Shown: positions 51,645 through 61,900 of the stretch, one piece after another
Layout of the letters: each line of letters begins with the position of its first letter
Numbering within the stretch: position 1 is the first letter of the stretch
NCBI GenBank assembly: GCA_024636755.1
Contig: JAGXGL010000021.1
Location: forward strand, 1-64,000
Source: Guyparkeria sp.
GTDB taxonomy: Bacteria > Pseudomonadota > Gammaproteobacteria > Halothiobacillales > Halothiobacillaceae
Direction of reading: 5' to 3'
Length of the DNA: 64,000 nucleotides
Notes under the pieces: generated by a model
Databases searched by the model: none
The model's input: the letters and a program-made list of their open reading frames with translations, nothing else
What the model was told of the DNA's origin: nothing
Position numbers and translations under genes: made by a program

Positions 51645-52880
<1,236 letters not shown>

Positions 52881-53045
52881 GCGGTTGGAAGGGTGTCCCG
52901 GCAGCAAACCGGGCTCCCTCCCGGCGCAACGGGGGACGAGCCGACCGGTACCCGAAAGGGTGTGATTCACAGGCAAGGGATGTCTGGCATGCAGCGAGTG
53001 GCAAACCGCAGGGAAATGGTCGCCAAAAAGGTATCTCCGCTGATA
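52881..53045 (+). other. Structured non-coding region after argG
   Basis: This stretch before the argG terminator can form several hairpins, among them accc-gaaa-gggt with a GNRA loop (52950-52961) and cccgg/ccggg near 52900. It may be the argG 3' UTR. A cyclic-di-GMP riboswitch was considered because a GGDEF-EAL gene follows, but the GEMM core was not found. The function is unknown. Confidence 0.35.
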
Positions 53046-53046
53046 G

Positions 53047-53082
53047 GGCGGGTCGTGGCGATGGTCACGGCCCGCCTTTTTT
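53047..53082 (+). terminator. Terminator of argG
   Basis: An 11-bp stem (53047-53057 with 53066-53076, one G-T pair) with an 8-base loop is followed by six T residues. It lies before the start of the GGDEF-EAL gene and shows that gene has its own promoter downstream. Confidence 0.85.
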
Positions 53083-53120
53083 GTGTCATCGGTGCCACCA
53101 GCCGAGCGGGGGTTGGTTTG

Positions 53121-55844
53121 ATGCAACACACCGTGCAACGCCTGTTGATCGGGATCATCGTGCTTGCAGCGTGGCAGTCCCCGATCCATGCCCAGGCATG
53201 GGCGAGTGACGATCGACTGATCAGCATCGGCGTGCTCACCATCACCAGCAAGGAGGAGGCGCAGGCGCGCTGGAACCCGACCGCCGATTACCTCAGTGAC
53301 CGCATCAAGGGGACGCGTTTCGAGATCCGGCCGCTGTACCTGCAGGAAGTGGCACGTGCCGTCCGGCAGAACGAACTGCACTTCGTTCACCTCCAACCAC
53401 TTCAATTCGTCCAGTTGCGTGCCGACTACGGCCTCGAAGCCCTGGCGACCCGGGTGGTCAACGGCGCGGGCAGTCCGAGCAATCGCTTCGGTTCGGTGAT
53501 CGTGCGCCTGGCCGGGCGCGATGAGATCAACGACCTGGCTGACTTGCAGGGCGCAATCGTTGCGGGGGTGGCGCCCAATGCCCTTGGGGCCTGGATCCTG
53601 GGTGCCGAGGAGATCGAACGGGCCGGGCTGTCGATCGAGAACGACATCCTGCCCCTGTACGTCGGTCTACCCATGAGCAACGTGCTCGGCGCGGTGGCAG
53701 CCGGGCGGGCGGATGCCGGTATCGTGCGGGCCGATGTGCTCACGCGGGAAATCGAAGCCGGGCGCTACACAGCCGAGACATTCAGCGTGCTCAACCGTGT
53801 CAGTGAACCGGGTTATCCGCATGCCCTCTCGAGCCGACTGGTACCGCAGTGGCCATTGGCCGCAACGACGCGGACGGCGCCGGCATTGCGCCAACAGGTC
53901 CGTTCGGCGTTGCTCTCGATGCCGACCGATTCGGCACCCCTCCTTGCCGCCAACCTGTCCGGCTGGTCTGAACCGGTCGATTACGGTGACCTCGAGGCGC
54001 TGGCCGATCGATGGCTCACCCCACCAGTCGACATGGTCGACTGGTTCCGGGCGCACTGGTGGGTCGTGCCCGTCGGCTTGAGTGCGCTGTTATCCCTCCT
54101 GCTCTGGCAACAATGGCGAGCCCGCCGTCTTCTCGCCCAACGCGAGCGCGAGCATCGGGCTGCACTGACGGCGATGCACGATGCCGTTGTCACGCTCGAC
54201 GGGGAAGGGCGCATCCAGTTTCTCAACCCCTCGGCCGAGCGGTTGCTGCCTGAGGGGATGCAGTCGGTGGAGGCCGTGGGTCAACGCCTGACGGACGTGT
54301 TCGCGTTGATGTTGCGCCATGACACCCATGACTTTTCGCTTGCCGGCATGATCGAACAGTTGGCCACCCGCAGCTGGGTGGAATACGCGGTAATCCTCGC
54401 GCATGGCCATCCCAGGCGGGTGCTCAACCTGACGGCCGCTCGAATGGACGACGTCGCCGACCTCGGCGAGGTGCGGCGGCTGGTCGTCTCGATGATGGAC
54501 ATCACCGAGCTCGACGAGACCAGTCGGCAGCTGGCCTATCGCGCCACGCACGACGAGCTGACCGGTCTGTTGACGCGACGGCATTTCCTCGATCAAGTCG
54601 AGTCGCGGATGCAGCCCACGGATGCAGAACGGAGCGGTGAAGGCGGAACGCTGCTCTGGGTGGATCTGGATCATTTTCGCCTGGTCAACGAAGGAGGCTC
54701 GCATCGGATGGGAGACGAGCTGGTCCGTCGTCTGGCGGGCTACCTGCGGGTCATGTTGCCGCCCAACACGCCGGTGGGGCGCCTTGGCGGTGACGAATTC
54801 GGCATCTACCTGGCCGCGTCGGCCGGCGACGACTGGCCGGAACGGGTACTCCACGCGATCCGGGATTTTCGCCTCGACGGGGACGACCGGGCGTTGCGCA
54901 CCTCGGCCAGCATCGGTGTTCGCGAGGTGGCCGCTGATGGTGGCTACAACGCCGCCACCGTCCTCGAGGAGGCCGAATCGGCCTGTGTGACCGCTCAGAA
55001 GCTGGGCGGCAACCGCTTGGTCGGGTTCGAGGAAAGCGCCGGTGAACGGTCCCTGCGCCAGACCGATTTCGCCGAACTCAACCGTCTCAAGCAAGCGGTC
55101 GAGCAGGATCGTTTTGTGTTGCATGCCCAGGAAATCCACGCCATCGGCGCCGCCGAAACCGACGGGGTGCGTCTTGAGGTCTTGATCCGCCTGGCCGGAG
55201 AGAATGGCCAGTTGGGTTCGCCGGCCCCATTGATCGAGCTGGCCGAACGATTCAACTACATGCCGCAGATCGATCGTTGGGTGGTCCGCCGGACGCTCCA
55301 GACCCTACGTGACCACTTGATCGCCGGGTCACCGCCGATGCGATTGACGATCAACCTCTCCGGCCAGTCGATGGAGGACGGCGAACTGGTCGGCTTTGTC
55401 CGGGACACGTTGCAACATTACGAGATCGATCCGACCTGCTTGTGCTTCGAGATCACCGAAACGGCGGCCATCGCGAATTTTGATCAGGCAGTGGAGCTGA
55501 TAGCCTCGCTACGCGACCTTGGCTGCCTGGTGGCTCTGGATGACTTCGGTGGTGGCTTGATCTCGTTCGAGTTCCTGCGTCGACTCAAGCCGGACATCGT
55601 CAAAATCGACGGCAAACTGGTCTGCGACCTGGAACACGACCGCGTCGCCGCCGTGATCGTCGAATCCATTCACGACGTGGCGCGAGTCATGGGGGCCCAA
55701 ACGGTAGGCGAGTGGGTGGAAACGCCGGCCACGCTGGCGCAACTCGAGCGCATCGGGGTGGATTTCGTGCAGGGCTACCTGCTGCATCGTCCAGAATCAC
55801 TGGTCGAACGACTCGCCGCGGAGCGCCCGGTGTTGGCTGGCTGA
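53121..55844 (+). CDS. PhnD-like sensor, PAS, GGDEF and EAL domain protein (copy 1, GGDEF intact)
   Basis: This 907-residue inner-membrane cyclic-di-GMP protein has a signal peptide (LLIGIIVLAAWQSPIHAQA), then a periplasmic PhnD/phosphonate-binding-like domain (about 30-290) with ARWNPTADYLSDRIKG, FEIRPLYLQEV and APNALGAWILG. A membrane helix (about 311-329) follows, then a PAS domain (about 345-470), a GGDEF domain with intact GRLGGDEFGIYL (about 555) but no RxxD inhibitory site, and an EAL domain. In the EAL part the motif reads EVL. The other catalytic residues appear intact (NLSGQ, FEITET, DDFGGG, KIDG, GEWVE, VQGYLL). It could therefore make and degrade cyclic-di-GMP in response to a periplasmic ligand. 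The domain resembles that of the tetrathionate sensor TtrS, a family analogy only. The ATG at 53121 is used because the longer frame would cross the argG terminator. Confidence 0.85.
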   Translation: MQHTVQRLLIGIIVLAAWQSPIHAQAWASDDRLISIGVLTITSKEEAQARWNPTADYLSDRIKGTRFEIRPLYLQEVARAVRQNELHFVHLQPLQFVQLRADYGLEALATRVVNGAGSPSNRFGSVIVRLAGRDEINDLADLQGAIVAGVAPNALGAWILGAEEIERAGLSIENDILPLYVGLPMSNVLGAVAAGRADAGIVRADVLTREIEAGRYTAETFSVLNRVSEPGYPHALSSRLVPQWPLAATTRTAPALRQQVRSALLSMPTDSAPLLAANLSGWSEPVDYGDLEALADRWLTPPVDMVDWFRAHWWVVPVGLSALLSLLLWQQWRARRLLAQREREHRAALTAMHDAVVTLDGEGRIQFLNPSAERLLPEGMQSVEAVGQRLTDVFALMLRHDTHDFSLAGMIEQLATRSWVEYAVILAHGHPRRVLNLTAARMDDVADLGEVRRLVVSMMDITELDETSRQLAYRATHDELTGLLTRRHFLDQVESRMQPTDAERSGEGGTLLWVDLDHFRLVNEGGSHRMGDELVRRLAGYLRVMLPPNTPVGRLGGDEFGIYLAASAGDDWPERVLHAIRDFRLDGDDRALRTSASIGVREVAADGGYNAATVLEEAESACVTAQKLGGNRLVGFEESAGERSLRQTDFAELNRLKQAVEQDRFVLHAQEIHAIGAAETDGVRLEVLIRLAGENGQLGSPAPLIELAERFNYMPQIDRWVVRRTLQTLRDHLIAGSPPMRLTINLSGQSMEDGELVGFVRDTLQHYEIDPTCLCFEITETAAIANFDQAVELIASLRDLGCLVALDDFGGGLISFEFLRRLKPDIVKIDGKLVCDLEHDRVAAVIVESIHDVARVMGAQTVGEWVETPATLAQLERIGVDFVQGYLLHRPESLVERLAAERPVLAG

Positions 55845-55905
55845 CGGCGCACCCGCATTTGACCGAGCGATCGATAACAAGCAGGACATTGACGGTGACA
55901 ACGAT

Positions 55906-58680
55906 ATGCCGCGATTCGGCACGGGGTGGAAATTGGGCGTGGGAGGAGTGCAGACCGGTCGGCCGTTTGTCGTTGGTGGTAGACGGATCGCGTTTGCGTT
56001 GTTTGCCCTGGCCTGGGTTTGGCTCGTCAACCCTGCACCCGCACAAGCCGACCGGGACGCCGCGGCAACGTCGATTCAGGTCGGTGTGCTCGCCTACGCC
56101 GGCAAGGACGAGGCACTCGGCCGCTGGCAGCCGACCGCCGACTACTTGAGCGAACGTAACCCGGGCTATCGCTTTGTCATCAAGCCCCTTTTTCTCTCCG
56201 AGTTGCGCAATGCGTTTGTCGAAGGGCGGCTTGATTTCGTTTTGACGCAATCGCTGCAGTACGCGGAGCTCTCCCGACTGGATTCCATCTGGCCGTTGGC
56301 GACCCTGGTGGTCGAGGCCAACGGCCAGCCCCTGGAACAGTTGGGAGCGGTGATCTTTACCCGCCAGGGAACCGGCTTTGCCGAACTCGATGACCTGGTT
56401 GGTGCCCGGGTTGCCGGCACCAGCCCGAATGCGCTGGGCGGCTGGCTGCTCGGGATGCAAGCACTGGAGAATGCCGGGCTGGATGTCGAGCACGAGATCA
56501 CGCCGATTTTCACCGGGCTGCCTTTGGAGGCGGTAGTGGATGCCGTGCTCGATGGCCGAGCGCACGCCGGGGTGGTGCGTTCCAGCTTCTTTCAGAGTTA
56601 CCTGGAAGCCTATCCCGACAGCCGGCTGGTGCCGGTGGGGGATGCGGCACGCGAGGGTTTCCCTTATCCCAGCAATACGCCGTTGGTGCCTGAATGGCCT
56701 TTTGCCGCCACCCGTCATGCGCCGGATGGCCTGGCGGCCGGTGTCGCCCGCCAATTGATCGCCATGCCTGCCGACGCCCCGGCCGCCGAACAGGCACGAA
56801 TTGCCGGATGGCGCCCGCCGTTGGATTACTCCATCGTCGAAAGGCTGCGCGACAAGTGGCTCCCCGATCCGATCTCCCCCGCGTCCTTGTTGCGACATTT
56901 CTGGCACTACTTCGTGCTGGTTCTGGCCGTGCTGCTCGCCTTGTTCGCCTGGCAGGCGCGGCGCGCCACGAAAAGACTGGGGGCCGAAAAACGTCGGCTC
57001 CGGCGCGCCTTTTCCGGTTTGCATACCGGCGCGGTACTCACCGACGCATCGGGGACTATCCTTCTCACCAATCGGGCGGTCGAGGGTTTTGCGCGCGCGG
57101 ACCTCGACGGGGAGTTGTTTGGGCGGCCGTTCTGTGAGGTGTTCAATCTCCAGACCGAGGGGCTGTCACCACAATGTTCGTTCAGTGATCTGGTCGAAAC
57201 GGTCGAGACCCAAGAGACGCGCTCGGTCGATGGCATGATCGAACGGGACAAGCAGCGATTTGACGTCAACCTCAAGCTCAGTCGGATCGAGGCGGAGGGC
57301 GGCACCCAGTTGCTCGTGTCGATGCTGGATGTCACCGATCTGCGCTCGGCCAATGCACTCTTGAGCTACCGGGCCAACCATGACCGGTTGACCGGGGTGC
57401 TCAACCGGGAGGCCATGGAGGAATTTCTCTCCCAGGCCATGCCCGGCAGGGCGCCACGCAACGAACCGGTCCACGCCAGTTGTCTAGTCTGGACCGACCT
57501 CGACGAGTTCCGGCTGCTCAACGAAATCGGCAGCCGCGAGTTGGGCGACCGCATCCTCGCCTCGCTGGCCAGTCACTTCTCGCTCGAATTGCCGTCGGAT
57601 GCCGTGCTCGCGCGTATGGGGGTGGACGAATTCGCCATCTGGATGCCACTAGCCAGCCGCGACACCTGCGCCCTGGTCGCCCGTGAGGTGCTGGAAATCA
57701 TTCACGCGTTTCGGCTGCCCGACGAGCACGAACACCTGCGGCTCAAGGCCAGTGTCGGCGTGACTCGGATCGACAGCGACGATCTGCTCGCCTCGCGACG
57801 CCTGGAAGACGCTGAGCGTGCGTGCCAGAGTGCCCAACGGCTGGGGGGCGACCGGGTGGTGCAATTCTCCGGCGAGGACACCGAGATGCTGGAGCGCGAG
57901 CAACAGATCCAACGATACAATGCCCTGCGCGCAGCAATCGCCGAGGATCGACTTAACCTGGCCGCCCAGCATATCGTCCCCGTAAAGGCGGGGATTCCCA
58001 TGCTCCACGAGATGCTCCTGCGCGTGACCGACGCCGATGGGCGCCTGCGATTTCCCAGTGAATACATAGAGATCGCCGAGAAACATCATGCCATGGGCGA
58101 AATCGACCGCTGGGTGATTCGCCATAGCTGCCGCTGGCTTGCTCGCCAGCCGCCAGATCGCGGCACAGTGAGCATCAATCTCTCCGCTCACTCGGTGCAA
58201 GACCCGGAGATGCTGGAGTTCATCCGCCATGAGCTCGGCGAATGGAACGTGGACCCGGCGCGGGTGGTCTTCGAGATCACCGAAACCGCGGCGATCGTCA
58301 ACCTCGATCAGGCCGAACGATTGATCGGGGCAATGCGCCGTATCGGGTGCCGATTTGCCCTGGACGACTTCGGCGGCGGTTTCCTTTCGTTCGAATACCT
58401 GCGTCGTCTCAACCCGGACATCATCAAGATCGACGGGCGATTGGTCGAAGACCTGTCACATGATCCCGTGGCCGCTGTAATCGTCTCCGCCATCGTCCAG
58501 GTGTCACGCGTAATGGGCGCGCAGACCGTGGCCGAATGGGTGGAAACCGACGACCAGTATCGACAAGTGACCGAGATGGGTGTCGATTACATCCAAGGCT
58601 TCCTGCTGCATCGCCCGACTCCGTTGGACAACGGTGGGGCCGAACCGTCTAGAGGGCACGCAGGGCCTGACCTCGTCTAA
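55906..58680 (+). CDS. PhnD-like sensor, PAS, degenerate GGDEF and EAL protein (copy 2)
   Basis: This 924-residue paralogue follows copy 1 by 61 bp in the same direction. It has a signal segment ending PAPAQA, a PhnD-like domain (about 55-300: [38 protein letters not shown]), a membrane helix (about 330-350), PAS (about 357-480), a GGDEF domain whose motif reads GVDEF (about 571), and an EAL domain. The changed second Gly suggests weak or no cyclase activity. The EAL residues look intact (EML, NLSAH, FEITET, DDFGGG, KIDG, AEWVE, IQGFLL), so it is probably a phosphodiesterase. It matches copy 1 from end to end, so the pair arose by tandem duplication. No good ribosome site precedes the ATG; translation may be coupled. 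Confidence 0.83.
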
Positions 58681-58738: not shown

Positions 58739-59122
58739 ATGCGCATTCTTCACACCATGATCCGTGTCAGTGACCTCGAGAAATCGCTGGCCTTCTATAC
58801 CGACGTACTCGGCATGAAGCTGTTGCGCCAGCAGGACTACCCGGCCGGTGAATTTACCCTGGCCTTCGTCGGTTATGGCGAAGAGAGCGAAACTGCCGTG
58901 CTGGAGTTGACCTACAACTGGGGTGATCACCAGTACGACCTCGGTGATGGCTATGGCCACATCGCGATCGAGGTCGATGATGTCTACGCCGCCGGCGAAA
59001 AGATCCGCGAGAAAGGGGGCACGATCCTGCGGGAACCCGGCCCGATGAATGCCGGTTCCACCATCATTGCGTTCGTCGCGGATCCGGACGGGTATGCCAT
59101 TGAATTGATCGGTGCGAAGTGA
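58739..59122 (+). CDS. gloA: Lactoylglutathione lyase (glyoxalase I)
   Basis: GloA converts the methylglyoxal-glutathione adduct to lactoylglutathione. The 127-residue protein has the Ni-type family pattern: [39 protein letters not shown] with a metal His, and [11 protein letters not shown] with a metal Glu. The start ATG at 58739 is set by homology with GGAG upstream; the frame extends further only through the end of the preceding gene. It is followed by a dyad and a terminator. Confidence 0.96.
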
Positions 59123-59137
59123 GGGAAAAATAGACCG

Positions 59138-59154
59138 CTGTCAAGCCTTGACAG
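59138..59154. repeat. Dyad symmetry after gloA
   Basis: A 7-bp inverted repeat with a 3-base centre (ctgtcaa-gcc-ttgacag) lies 16 bp after the gloA stop. It is operator-like in shape; the binding protein is unknown. Confidence 0.35.
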
Positions 59155-59176
59155 TGAGTATTTTCCACATACAGCG

Positions 59177-59615: not shown

Positions 59616-60629
59616 ATGACGATTCGGGTAGGCATCAACGGGTTCGGGCGTATTGGCCGGTTGGCATTCCGGGCCTTGGCCGACCGCCCGGACCTCGGTC
59701 TCGAGGTGGTGCACGTCAATGAAATCGCCGCCGACGCTGCCTGCATGGCGCACCTGACGGAATTTGATTCCGTGCATGGCCGTTGGCAACGGTCGATCGC
59801 GGGGGAGGGTGACACCCTGACGCTGGACGGGCGGGATATCCGCTTTACTCGAAGCGAGTCGGTGGAAGGGATCGACTGGGGCCGCTCCTCGGTTGACGTG
59901 GTAATCGAGGCGACCGGCCGTTGGCGGCGCTTCGAGGAAATCACGCCGCACCTGGAGCAGGGGGCGTCACGCGTCGCCGTGGCCGCGCCGGTCAAGCATG
60001 ATGAGGTGCTCAACGTCGTCATGGGCGTGAACCACGACCTGTTCGATGCCAGCCGTCACCAGGTCGTCACCGCCGCCTCCTGCACCACCAACTGCCTGGC
60101 GCCGGTGGTCAAGGTGTTGCACGAGGGGCTGGGTATCCAGCGCGGCACGATGACCACCATGCATGACCCGACCAACACGCAGGTGGTGGTCGACAAGGGC
60201 GACAAGGACTGGCGCCGCGCCCGGGCCTCGTCGATGTCACTTTCGCCCACCACCACGGGCTCGGCCAAGGCCATCGGCGCGATCTTCCCGGAGCTCGACG
60301 GGCGGCTCAACGGGCTGGCCGTGCGAGTGCCGTTGCTCAATGCCTCGTTGACCGATTTCGTCTTCACCCCCGCGCGCTCCACCACGGTCGACGAGGTCAA
60401 TGGGCTGTTGCGCGAGGCCGCCGACGGGGAGTTGAAGGACATCCTGGGGTTCGAGACCCGTCCGCTGGTCTCGGTGGATTACACCAATGATCCGCGCTCC
60501 TCGATCATCGATGCGCCCTCGACCATGGTGATCGACCAGGATCTGGTCAAAGTGCTGGCCTGGTACGACAACGAGTGGGGCTATGCCCAGCGGCTGGTCG
60601 AACTCGTGTCGATGATCGGTCGGGCCTGA
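59616..60629 (+). CDS. ArsJ-associated glyceraldehyde-3-phosphate dehydrogenase
   Basis: This 337-residue enzyme has the type I GAPDH fold: NAD site VGINGFGRIGRLAFRAL and active-site Cys in AASCTTNCLAPV. DNEWGYAQRLVEL is near the C-terminus. Because arsJ follows by 20 bp, its likely role is to form 1-arseno-3-phosphoglycerate from arsenate and glyceraldehyde 3-phosphate rather than to act in central glycolysis. The substrate-binding HDPTNTQVVVDKG and other changes fit the ars-linked branch, not the housekeeping enzyme. No arsR repressor is adjacent. Confidence 0.88.
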   Translation: MTIRVGINGFGRIGRLAFRALADRPDLGLEVVHVNEIAADAACMAHLTEFDSVHGRWQRSIAGEGDTLTLDGRDIRFTRSESVEGIDWGRSSVDVVIEATGRWRRFEEITPHLEQGASRVAVAAPVKHDEVLNVVMGVNHDLFDASRHQVVTAASCTTNCLAPVVKVLHEGLGIQRGTMTTMHDPTNTQVVVDKGDKDWRRARASSMSLSPTTTGSAKAIGAIFPELDGRLNGLAVRVPLLNASLTDFVFTPARSTTVDEVNGLLREAADGELKDILGFETRPLVSVDYTNDPRSSIIDAPSTMVIDQDLVKVLAWYDNEWGYAQRLVELVSMIGRA

Positions 60630-60649
60630 GGCAAGCACACGGAGTCACC

Positions 60650-61900
60650 ATGCCTACCGCGCTACGCCACTACCTCACCATCACCGGCAACTATTGGCTG
60701 TTCACCCTGACCGACGGGGCGATCCGCATGCTGGTGGTGCTGCATTTCTACCAGCTCGGCTACTCGCCGTTCGCCATTGCGATGCTGTTTCTCTTCTACG
60801 AGTTCTTCGGCATCGTCACCAACCTGGTGGGGGGCTGGCTGGGCGCGCGTATCGGCCTGAATCGAACCATGCAGGTCGGTACTGGGCTGCAGATCGCCGC
60901 GTTGCTGATGCTGACGGTGCCCGATCCCTGGTTGACGGTGGCCTATGTGATGCTGGCCCAGGCGCTTTCCGGCATCGCCAAGGATCTCAACAAGATGTCG
61001 GCGAAGGCCGGGGTCAAGCTGGTCGCGCGCGAGGGCAACGCGCAGCTGTTCCGCTGGGTCGCCTGGATCACCGGTTCGAAAAATGCCCTGAAGGGCGCAG
61101 GGTTCTTCCTCGGCGCCGTGTTGCTGGCCGCGATTGGATTCCAGGGGGCCATGGGCCTGCTTGCCGCGCTGTTGGTAGTGGGCTTCCTGATGACCTTGAC
61201 GCTGCCGGGCGGTTTCGGCGCCATCAAGGCCAAGACCGGGGTTCGGCAGATGTTCGCCCGCGAGCCATTGATCAATTGGTTGGCCGCGGCCCGGTTGTTC
61301 CTGTTCGGCGCTCGCGATGTCTGGTTCGTGGTCGCGCTGCCGGTCTTCCTCGTCTCGATCGGCTGGGATTTCCACTGGGTCGGGGCCTACCTTGCCCTGT
61401 GGGTGATTGGTTACGGGGTGGTTCAGTCCGCGGCCCCCTGGTTGCTCGGCGCACGTCGGCCGAAAACCGGATCAGGCCCCGGTGGCCCAACGGATGGCTC
61501 ACCTGATGGCCCCGGTGCCCGCACCGCGGTCATCTGGAGCTTTGCCCTGGTCCTGCCGCTGGGCGCACTGCTGCTGGCGATTGCGTCGGGGCAGACGGCC
61601 GGTTGGATCATCACCCTGGGCCTGGCGTTCTTCGGCGTGGTGTTCGCGCTCAATTCGGCCACCCACTCGTACCTGGTGTTGCGCTATTCGGCCGATGAAA
61701 AAACGTCAGAGAACGTGGGGTTCTACTACGCCGCGAATGCGGGCGGGCGTTTGCTGGGCACCGTGCTCTCCGGGGCAAGCTACCAGTGGCTGGGTATTGC
61801 TGGCAGCCTCGGCTTTGCGCTGGCCTTCGTGGTGATTGCGGGCCTTCTGAGTCTGCGACTCGTCGCGCTGGAATCGAGCTTGGGCGGGGAGGGCGACTGA
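60650..61900 (+). CDS. arsJ: Organoarsenical efflux MFS transporter ArsJ
   Basis: ArsJ exports 1-arseno-3-phosphoglycerate, which then breaks down outside the cytoplasm, so arsenate is removed. The 416-residue membrane protein has the family N-terminus (LTITGNYWLFTLTDGAIRML), GYSPFAIAMLFLFYEFFG, GGWLGARIGLNRTM, and the conserved GIAKDLNKMSAK and ARLFLFGARDVWFVVALPV. There are about 11-12 hydrophobic helices with a Gly/Pro-rich central loop (about 275-300). The ATG start has GGAG seven bases upstream. It is the second gene of the GAPDH-arsJ pair. Confidence 0.93.
   Translation: MPTALRHYLTITGNYWLFTLTDGAIRMLVVLHFYQLGYSPFAIAMLFLFYEFFGIVTNLVGGWLGARIGLNRTMQVGTGLQIAALLMLTVPDPWLTVAYVMLAQALSGIAKDLNKMSAKAGVKLVAREGNAQLFRWVAWITGSKNALKGAGFFLGAVLLAAIGFQGAMGLLAALLVVGFLMTLTLPGGFGAIKAKTGVRQMFAREPLINWLAAARLFLFGARDVWFVVALPVFLVSIGWDFHWVGAYLALWVIGYGVVQSAAPWLLGARRPKTGSGPGGPTDGSPDGPGARTAVIWSFALVLPLGALLLAIASGQTAGWIITLGLAFFGVVFALNSATHSYLVLRYSADEKTSENVGFYYAANAGGRLLGTVLSGASYQWLGIAGSLGFALAFVVIAGLLSLRLVALESSLGGEGD

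Follow-up and report, generated by a model that had tools for sequence, protein, structure and literature searches.

Tandem PhnD/TtrS-like sensor proteins of Guyparkeria with a predicted cyclic di-GMP phosphodiesterase output

For most enzymes of cyclic di-GMP (c-di-GMP) turnover the signal has not been identified. A locus in a 64-kb stretch of Guyparkeria sp. DNA (contig JAGXGL010000021.1, hereafter called the window) raises the question of what is sensed, and what is done with the signal, in a case where the class of the ligand can be guessed. Two adjacent genes, here called gene A and gene B, each combine a PhnD/TtrS-like binding domain with GGDEF and EAL domains. As a whole, the favoured explanation that both products are sulfur-oxyanion-gated phosphodiesterases is given a probability of roughly 0.45. 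The genes and their domains are listed below; all coordinates are positions in the window.

53121..55844, + strand: gene A, 907 residues; signal peptide, PF12974 binding domain, transmembrane helix, PAS, GGDEF, EAL
53226..53972, + strand: PhnD/TtrS-like binding domain of A; PF12974 137.6 bits; AlphaFold mean pLDDT 93.6 for 53211-54002; Foldseek matches PtxB/ArrX
54057..54113, + strand: probable membrane helix of A, position approximate; placed by alignment with B; weak hydropathy
54543..55016, + strand: GGDEF domain of A; GGDEF motif kept; RxxD I-site missing; Q in place of the C-terminal AK lysine
55080..55793, + strand: EAL domain of A; catalytic residues intact at every position checked (EVL, N, E, DD, K, E, Q)
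55906..58680, + strand: gene B, 924 residues; paralogue of A with identical layout, 61 bp 3' of A
56080..56823, + strand: PhnD/TtrS-like binding domain of B; PF12974 130.6 bits; AlphaFold mean pLDDT 94.6 for 56065-56856; VIA Z-score 24.6 to apo PtxB
56893..56955, + strand: membrane helix of B, position approximate; hydropathy maximum 1.89 over residues 326-352
57373..57849, + strand: degenerate GGDEF domain of B; GVDEF; AK lysine replaced by Q; dN/dS (nonsynonymous to synonymous change) 0.02-0.04
57919..58617, + strand: EAL domain of B; catalytic residues intact at every position checked (EML, N, E, DD, K, E, Q)

Both open reading frames are full-length, and their products are 40% identical over 870 columns of a protein alignment. 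Reading frames, Pfam matches and alignment agree with the original prediction, made from this DNA alone, that two paralogues of one five-part layout lie 61 bp apart. Upstream of the ATG at 53121 the frame of A stays open as far as a GTG at 52893; because a strong terminator-like hairpin at 53045-53078 sits between the two codons, the ATG is the sensible start. In both proteins a hydrophobic N-terminal leader ending in an AQA-type site was read from the sequence. Pfam scores were far over the cut-offs for GGDEF (81 bits in A, 67.7 bits in B) and EAL (196.7 and 196.8 bits), and the PAS matches were below threshold but consistent, with best E-values of 3e-5 in A and 8e-4 in B. Hydropathy is weak at the membrane helix of A, where windows of 19 residues do not exceed 1.6. 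No kinase domain was found in either protein in the Pfam scan, the output being GGDEF-EAL. Over PAS-GGDEF-EAL, the best match in the Protein Data Bank (PDB) was PA0861 (RbdA) of Pseudomonas aeruginosa, with an alignment that runs throughout in A and B. It is very nearly certain that A and B are sensor-EAL proteins.

The fusion of a periplasmic binding-protein domain to c-di-GMP enzymes, as originally proposed, was borne out by Pfam and by fold models. Searches with the PF12974 (Phosphonate-bd) profile, whose gathering score is 27 bits, and fold comparison with the TtrS and PhnD types found a binding-protein fold in both copies. The AlphaFold models were built on alignments of 22 sequences. In Foldseek and VIA, the top fold matches of both models were PtxB, ArrX, XAC2383 and HtxB, with AioX and PhnD lower; the model of B reached Z-scores of 23-25 to its best matches in VIA, including 24.4 to the XAC2383 structure. 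PtxB was also the best solved relative by sequence. Among named sensor families, TtrS (NF040750) fitted the N-termini best, at 117.1 bits for A and 124.0 bits for B. The proposed likeness to TtrS holds to that extent, but the scores are far under the curated whole-protein cut-off of 750 bits; judged by these profiles, the N-termini are TtrS-like and the proteins stand outside TtrS. The STS-H ligand motif of PtxB (S124, T125, S126 and H155; PMC5700983) is missing from A and B, where the aligned residues are A-L-G plus L or M. Two features are common to the sensor group, an Arg in AG-x-[VFI]-R and a PEWP loop, which reads PQWP in A of the window; neither is present in the alignment of PtxB, nor in those transporter-type relatives for which that region aligned. 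The pockets of the two copies were compared by sequence alignment alone, a check suggested with the prediction, and their residues differ: HLQPLQ in one corresponds to LTQSLQ in the other, and the APNALGAW and GFPY segments differ too. Because of these differences, A and B may favour different ligands.

The catalytic signatures of the output domains point to hydrolysis of c-di-GMP. The EAL residues E, N, E, DD, K, E and Q are kept in all A, B and Halothiobacillus copies that reach them; one copy is truncated by the end of its contig. The Ala of the EAL motif is also absent from PA0861, which reads ELL. The GGDEF motif is GVDEF in all nine B orthologues and GVDEF, GADEF or GIDEF in the Halothiobacillus copies. 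The A orthologues have GGDEF (in the window and its close relatives) or GDDEF (in three). The window's A and B both have Q instead of the lysine of AKxxGRN, and no B or Halothiobacillus copy retains this lysine (Q/H/Y/R). No RxxD inhibitory site was found in either copy (PPNTPVGRLGGDEF and a second 14-residue segment were checked); this site is dispensable for activity. Orthologues linked to argG in other families mostly have a normal GGDEF motif and the AK lysine. Because the EAL residues are intact, the GGDEF domain is degenerate and the other-family orthologues are mostly normal, both copies are likely to act as phosphodiesterases, and the family (Halothiobacillaceae) has probably lost cyclase activity in the course of its own history. 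From these residues we consider it highly probable that A and B are active c-di-GMP phosphodiesterases, and probable that cyclase activity is absent, with higher confidence for B than for A. Two observations weigh against the latter and leave room for weak cyclase activity: the AK lysine is kept in three A orthologues, and the GGDEF motif is kept in A.

Within the genus, the degenerate GGDEF domain is the most conserved domain of B. Mean identity among the B proteins of Guyparkeria (36 pairs) was 85.0% for GGDEF, 77.6% for the binding domain and 74.8% for EAL. The low dN/dS of the GGDEF domain compares with 0.08-0.10 for EAL, and synonymous change in GGDEF was equally high as elsewhere. GGDEF and EAL differed at p <0.05 in five of seven pairwise comparisons, which are not independent of each other; the strongest p value was 0.0002. 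The A proteins showed the opposite order, with 64.7% identity for GGDEF versus 74.4% for EAL. Because of this conservation, a non-catalytic role is the simplest reading of the domain in B, and the pattern suggests a docking or regulatory job. In PdeB of Shewanella, an inactive GGDEF domain binds HubP and GTP and acts as an on-switch (PMC9061725). The FimV C-terminal model TIGR03504 gave 0 matches in the Guyparkeria-clade genomes and the two Halothiobacillus-clade genomes searched, where a divergent HubP could escape it, and matched in three other genomes of the Halothiobacillaceae.

To approach the ligand, relatives of the binding domain were gathered from 369 genomes of the class Gammaproteobacteria. 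About nine of them lie within or adjoin sox genes. At the loci labelled L063, L138, L144, L150, L151, L153 and L181 the sox-linked sensor, a histidine kinase, is followed by a response regulator gene, at L086 it stands directly 5' of soxY, and at G241:C8 the linkage was established by coordinates. SoxA, SoxB, SoxX, SoxY and SoxZ were confirmed at the sampled sox-linked loci by family searches, and the sox-linked sensors searched have TtrS-type N-termini, with TtrS as the top score. A binding domain of the type found here served to find the thiosulfate sensor ThsS (Daeffler et al., PMC5408782), and Guyparkeria is described as capable of complete thiosulfate oxidation and of tetrathionate oxidation (PMC9032823). 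The source genome (98 contigs, 79% complete) carries soxB as well as flagellar FliG and PilZ proteins. An oxyanion-type ligand, as put forward originally, was kept as the best guess, and sulfur oxyanions fit both the organism and the sox-linked relatives. We regard an oxyanion as reasonably probable; that it would be a sulfur oxyanion in particular, such as thiosulfate or tetrathionate, is predicted tentatively, at slightly under even odds.

Several results weigh against a sulfur ligand. Genome-wide, soxB was present in 63 of 81 genomes with a sensor of this subgroup and in 88 of the 288 others (odds ratio 8, p 3e-14). In the PF12974 control, however, 50 of 93 genomes with other PF12974 proteins had soxB, against 38 of 195 without them, and the excess specific to the subgroup is modest (63/81 versus 50/93; odds ratio 3.0, p 0.0014). 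As this control shows most of the signal to be non-specific, the co-occurrence was dropped as main evidence, and because it is confounded, the guess at the ligand leans on the direct sox linkage. The pocket residues of A and B are also unlike those of the sox-linked kinases: LTN/LVN is replaced by LTQ/HLQ, LYPEWP by LVPEWP/LVPQWP and THD by GLP. Because of these differences, the ligand may have changed. Finally, the neighbours of A and B are argG and gloA, without sulfur genes.

From the architecture, the fold, the EAL residues, the degenerate cyclase signature, the conserved locus and the sox linkage of the related kinases, all obtained by sequence analysis and computation, we infer a ligand, a sign of the response, an EAL activity and a role for GGDEF. 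A and B would be ligand-gated c-di-GMP phosphodiesterases of the inner membrane. Their periplasmic domain, of PhnD/TtrS type, would bind a small oxyanion, likeliest a reduced sulfur oxyanion such as thiosulfate or tetrathionate. When the binding domain closes, the membrane helix and the PAS domain would relay the change to the EAL domain, and c-di-GMP would then be cleaved there. The GGDEF domain would no longer be a cyclase; it may serve as a regulatory or docking module that binds a partner protein or GTP, B being the clearest case. The output would likely be a choice between motility and attachment as the sulfur substrate changes. Should thiosulfate or tetrathionate prove to be the ligand, swimming versus attachment in sulfur oxidisers would be tied directly to their energy substrate. 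Ligand testing should be cheap, the predicted compact periplasmic domain resembling domains already purified and crystallised.

The pair lies between two conserved neighbours on the same strand, with terminator-like hairpins before A and after gloA:

51645..52880, + strand: argG, argininosuccinate synthase; NCBIfam PRK00509 646 bits, cut-off 334; conserved 5' neighbour
53045..53084, + strand: strong terminator-like hairpin in the gap between argG and A; 15-bp stem with 10 G-C pairs, then Ts
58739..59122, + strand: gloA, lactoylglutathione lyase; NCBIfam TIGR00068 154.8 bits, cut-off 120; 58 bp 3' of B; conserved neighbour
59136..59166, + strand: weak terminator-like hairpin directly 3' of gloA; such sites are about as many in the region as in shuffled sequences

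Because hairpins flank the genes at the argG end and after gloA, A, B and gloA are probably one transcription unit, with gloA last. Further along the window, positions 59616-61900 hold the gene of an ArsJ-associated glyceraldehyde-3-phosphate dehydrogenase (GAPDH, gap) followed by that of the organoarsenical efflux transporter ArsJ, both with NCBIfam scores over cut-off; the two form a known arsenate resistance pair.

In six other sampled Guyparkeria genomes, A and B both lie between argG and gloA. In one of these six, Guyparkeria sp. SCN-R1 (G001; L033 9072-12125), an in-frame TAG stop interrupts A, and B is intact. Two further genomes of the genus carry just B, and another carries just A. 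Halothiobacillus has one copy directly 3' of argG, without gloA. In the full-length tree, B groups with the Halothiobacillus copies (support 99/98), and an origin of the pair at the level of the genus, with A and B as one clade, was rejected (p-AU 0.0026), with long branches as a caveat. Because B joins the Halothiobacillus copies and the A+B clade was rejected, the duplication appears to be older than the genus Guyparkeria, with loss of A in Halothiobacillus; the long branches qualify this conclusion as well. The pair, the single-copy relatives and the A-only and B-only strains offer a natural comparison for pocket specificity and for a non-catalytic GGDEF role.

Outside both genera, a same-strand block of argG and sensor occurs in one more genome of the same family (G011) and in five other families (genomes G025 and G182; G067, G207 and G313; G114; G246; G264). 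Among sampled sensors from other families that bear a GGDEF domain, 8 of 29 are linked to argG, far over chance for a given neighbour gene. In several blocks gloA adjoins the sensor, and at L062 and L155 it is placed between argG and the sensor. The argG-sensor-gloA spot is conserved and apparently undescribed. The deep position of the argG-linked sensors was without resolution in the tree of the binding domain only. A bolder proposal would make the spot an ancient signalling locus of sulfur-oxidising Gammaproteobacteria in which a periplasmic sulfur-oxyanion sensor sets c-di-GMP; in Guyparkeria it would have split into two sensors with different pockets, and the dead GGDEF of B would have become a docking surface, for a partner protein or for A, on which selection acts more strongly than on the catalytic domain. 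We hold this to be doubtful.

The conserved neighbours allow a different reading, namely that the sensor reads a metabolite of arginine synthesis (ArgG) or of methylglyoxal detoxification (GloA), c-di-GMP being set by the nitrogen or carbonyl-stress state. This fits the same-strand adjacency of argG and sensor in six families, the presence of gloA alongside in many, its one-base overlap with the sensor at L162 and L165, and the finding that argG-linked genes make up most of the top full-length matches in other families; arginine supply, moreover, alters c-di-GMP levels in Pseudomonas putida (PMC7423604). However, the binding domain belongs with the oxyanion binders and not with the amino-acid-binding type, a strong terminator separates argG from A here, and the Halothiobacillus sensor follows argG without gloA. 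In addition, soxB is present in every sampled argG-linked genome (8/8 outside the family), and the adjacency may be mere inherited order. A neighbour metabolite is on balance an unlikely ligand. Phosphite, phosphonate or phosphate, the ligands expected from PtxB and PhnD, are suggested by PtxB being the best solved match by sequence and fold and by the Pfam name of PF12974. Phosphonate and phosphite were among the original candidates and are disfavoured by the replacement of the STS-H motif in both copies; no phosphonate or phosphite genes lie nearby and no ABC transporter genes adjoin, and we consider ligands of this kind very improbable. As for arsenate or arsenite, sensed as by ArrX/AioX in the service of the adjacent gap-arsJ resistance genes, ArrX and AioX rank among the best fold matches, and gap-arsJ begins 0.5 kb 3' of gloA. 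The link was rejected on the grounds that arsJ does not accompany the sensor in Halothiobacillus, where neither arsJ nor its GAPDH gene is near the orthologues; a terminator-like site also separates gloA from gap here, and an arsenic ligand is most improbable.

The output could also be divided between the copies: A would still make c-di-GMP and B degrade it, and the pair, with two inputs, would work as a push-pull switch. Such a switch is consistent with the GGDEF motif that the window's A shares with its close relatives, with the different pocket regions of A and B and with the other-family orthologues whose GGDEF and AK lysine are intact. Its probability is nevertheless quite low, considering the Q in place of the AK lysine in the window's A, GDDEF in three A orthologues, the tendency of the A GGDEF to lower conservation than the A EAL, and the loss of each copy singly in some strains. 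Phosphodiesterase activity of both copies remains the preferred reading.

Compared with known systems, A and B resemble the histidine kinases TtrS and ThsS in having a membrane-anchored periplasmic sensor of the PhnD-like kind, and related kinases occur in sox clusters. In contrast to TtrS/ThsS, their output is PAS-GGDEF-EAL, no response regulator or ttr/sox genes adjoin, and the pocket-region residues are unlike. XAC2383-XAC2382 of Xanthomonas citri is reportedly a bipartite system of periplasmic receptor and diguanylate cyclase. It resembles A and B in coupling a PhnD-like receptor, itself a top fold match, to c-di-GMP turnover, but there the receptor is separate and acts on a cyclase, whereas A and B are single chains whose output is probably a phosphodiesterase. 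PA0861 resembles them over PAS-GGDEF-EAL, including the deviating EAL motif, and no PhnD-like periplasmic domain was matched in it. Shewanella PdeB is a phosphodiesterase of periplasmic domain, PAS, inactive GGDEF and EAL (PMC9061725), but its periplasmic domain is unrelated and it has HAMP. PtxB, PhnD, ArrX and AioX share the two-lobed fold, but they are free proteins that bind ligands for transporters or two-component systems, and the STS-H of PtxB is lacking in A and B.

Outside the family, the sample contains 23 PF12974-GGDEF-EAL proteins and 33 PF12974-kinase proteins, the kinases being counted by motif. The PF12974-GGDEF-EAL architecture is widespread in Gammaproteobacteria, hence the design is already known. 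With these proteins, and with a PhnD-like receptor and cyclase known from Xanthomonas, the idea of an isolated, undescribed unit was given up. In the open-licence literature, no description of this unit, or of a PF12974-GGDEF-EAL fusion with its ligand, was found; as a sign of novelty this counts for little. Three points go beyond the original prediction: how old the duplication is, the argG/gloA context, and that cyclase activity has probably been lost. A plasmid search returned generic PAS-GGDEF-EAL matches only, none covering 80% of the query.

The genome of SCN-R1 also carries soxB (G001 contig C19:34304-36064). The Guyparkeria pangenome paper gives soxB as missing in one place and as separated from soxAX in another (PMC9032823). 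At L135, L147, L162 and L165 (three f44 genomes and one f91 genome), DoxX-, DUF2063- and DUF692-like (bufferin-type) genes, identified by eye, stand on the other side of the argG-sensor block. The source genome encodes a third PF12974 protein with several PAS domains and GGDEF (L001/L064, contig C24), which falls elsewhere in the binding-domain tree, on a different branch, and is present in most Guyparkeria genomes searched. Its gene lies directly 3' of that of a predicted NMT1/SsuA-like binding protein. At L128, L143, L164 and L167, a ModA-like binding-protein gene stands beside PhnD-like sensors unlinked to argG or sox, and its product is perhaps a soluble partner receptor for these sensors.

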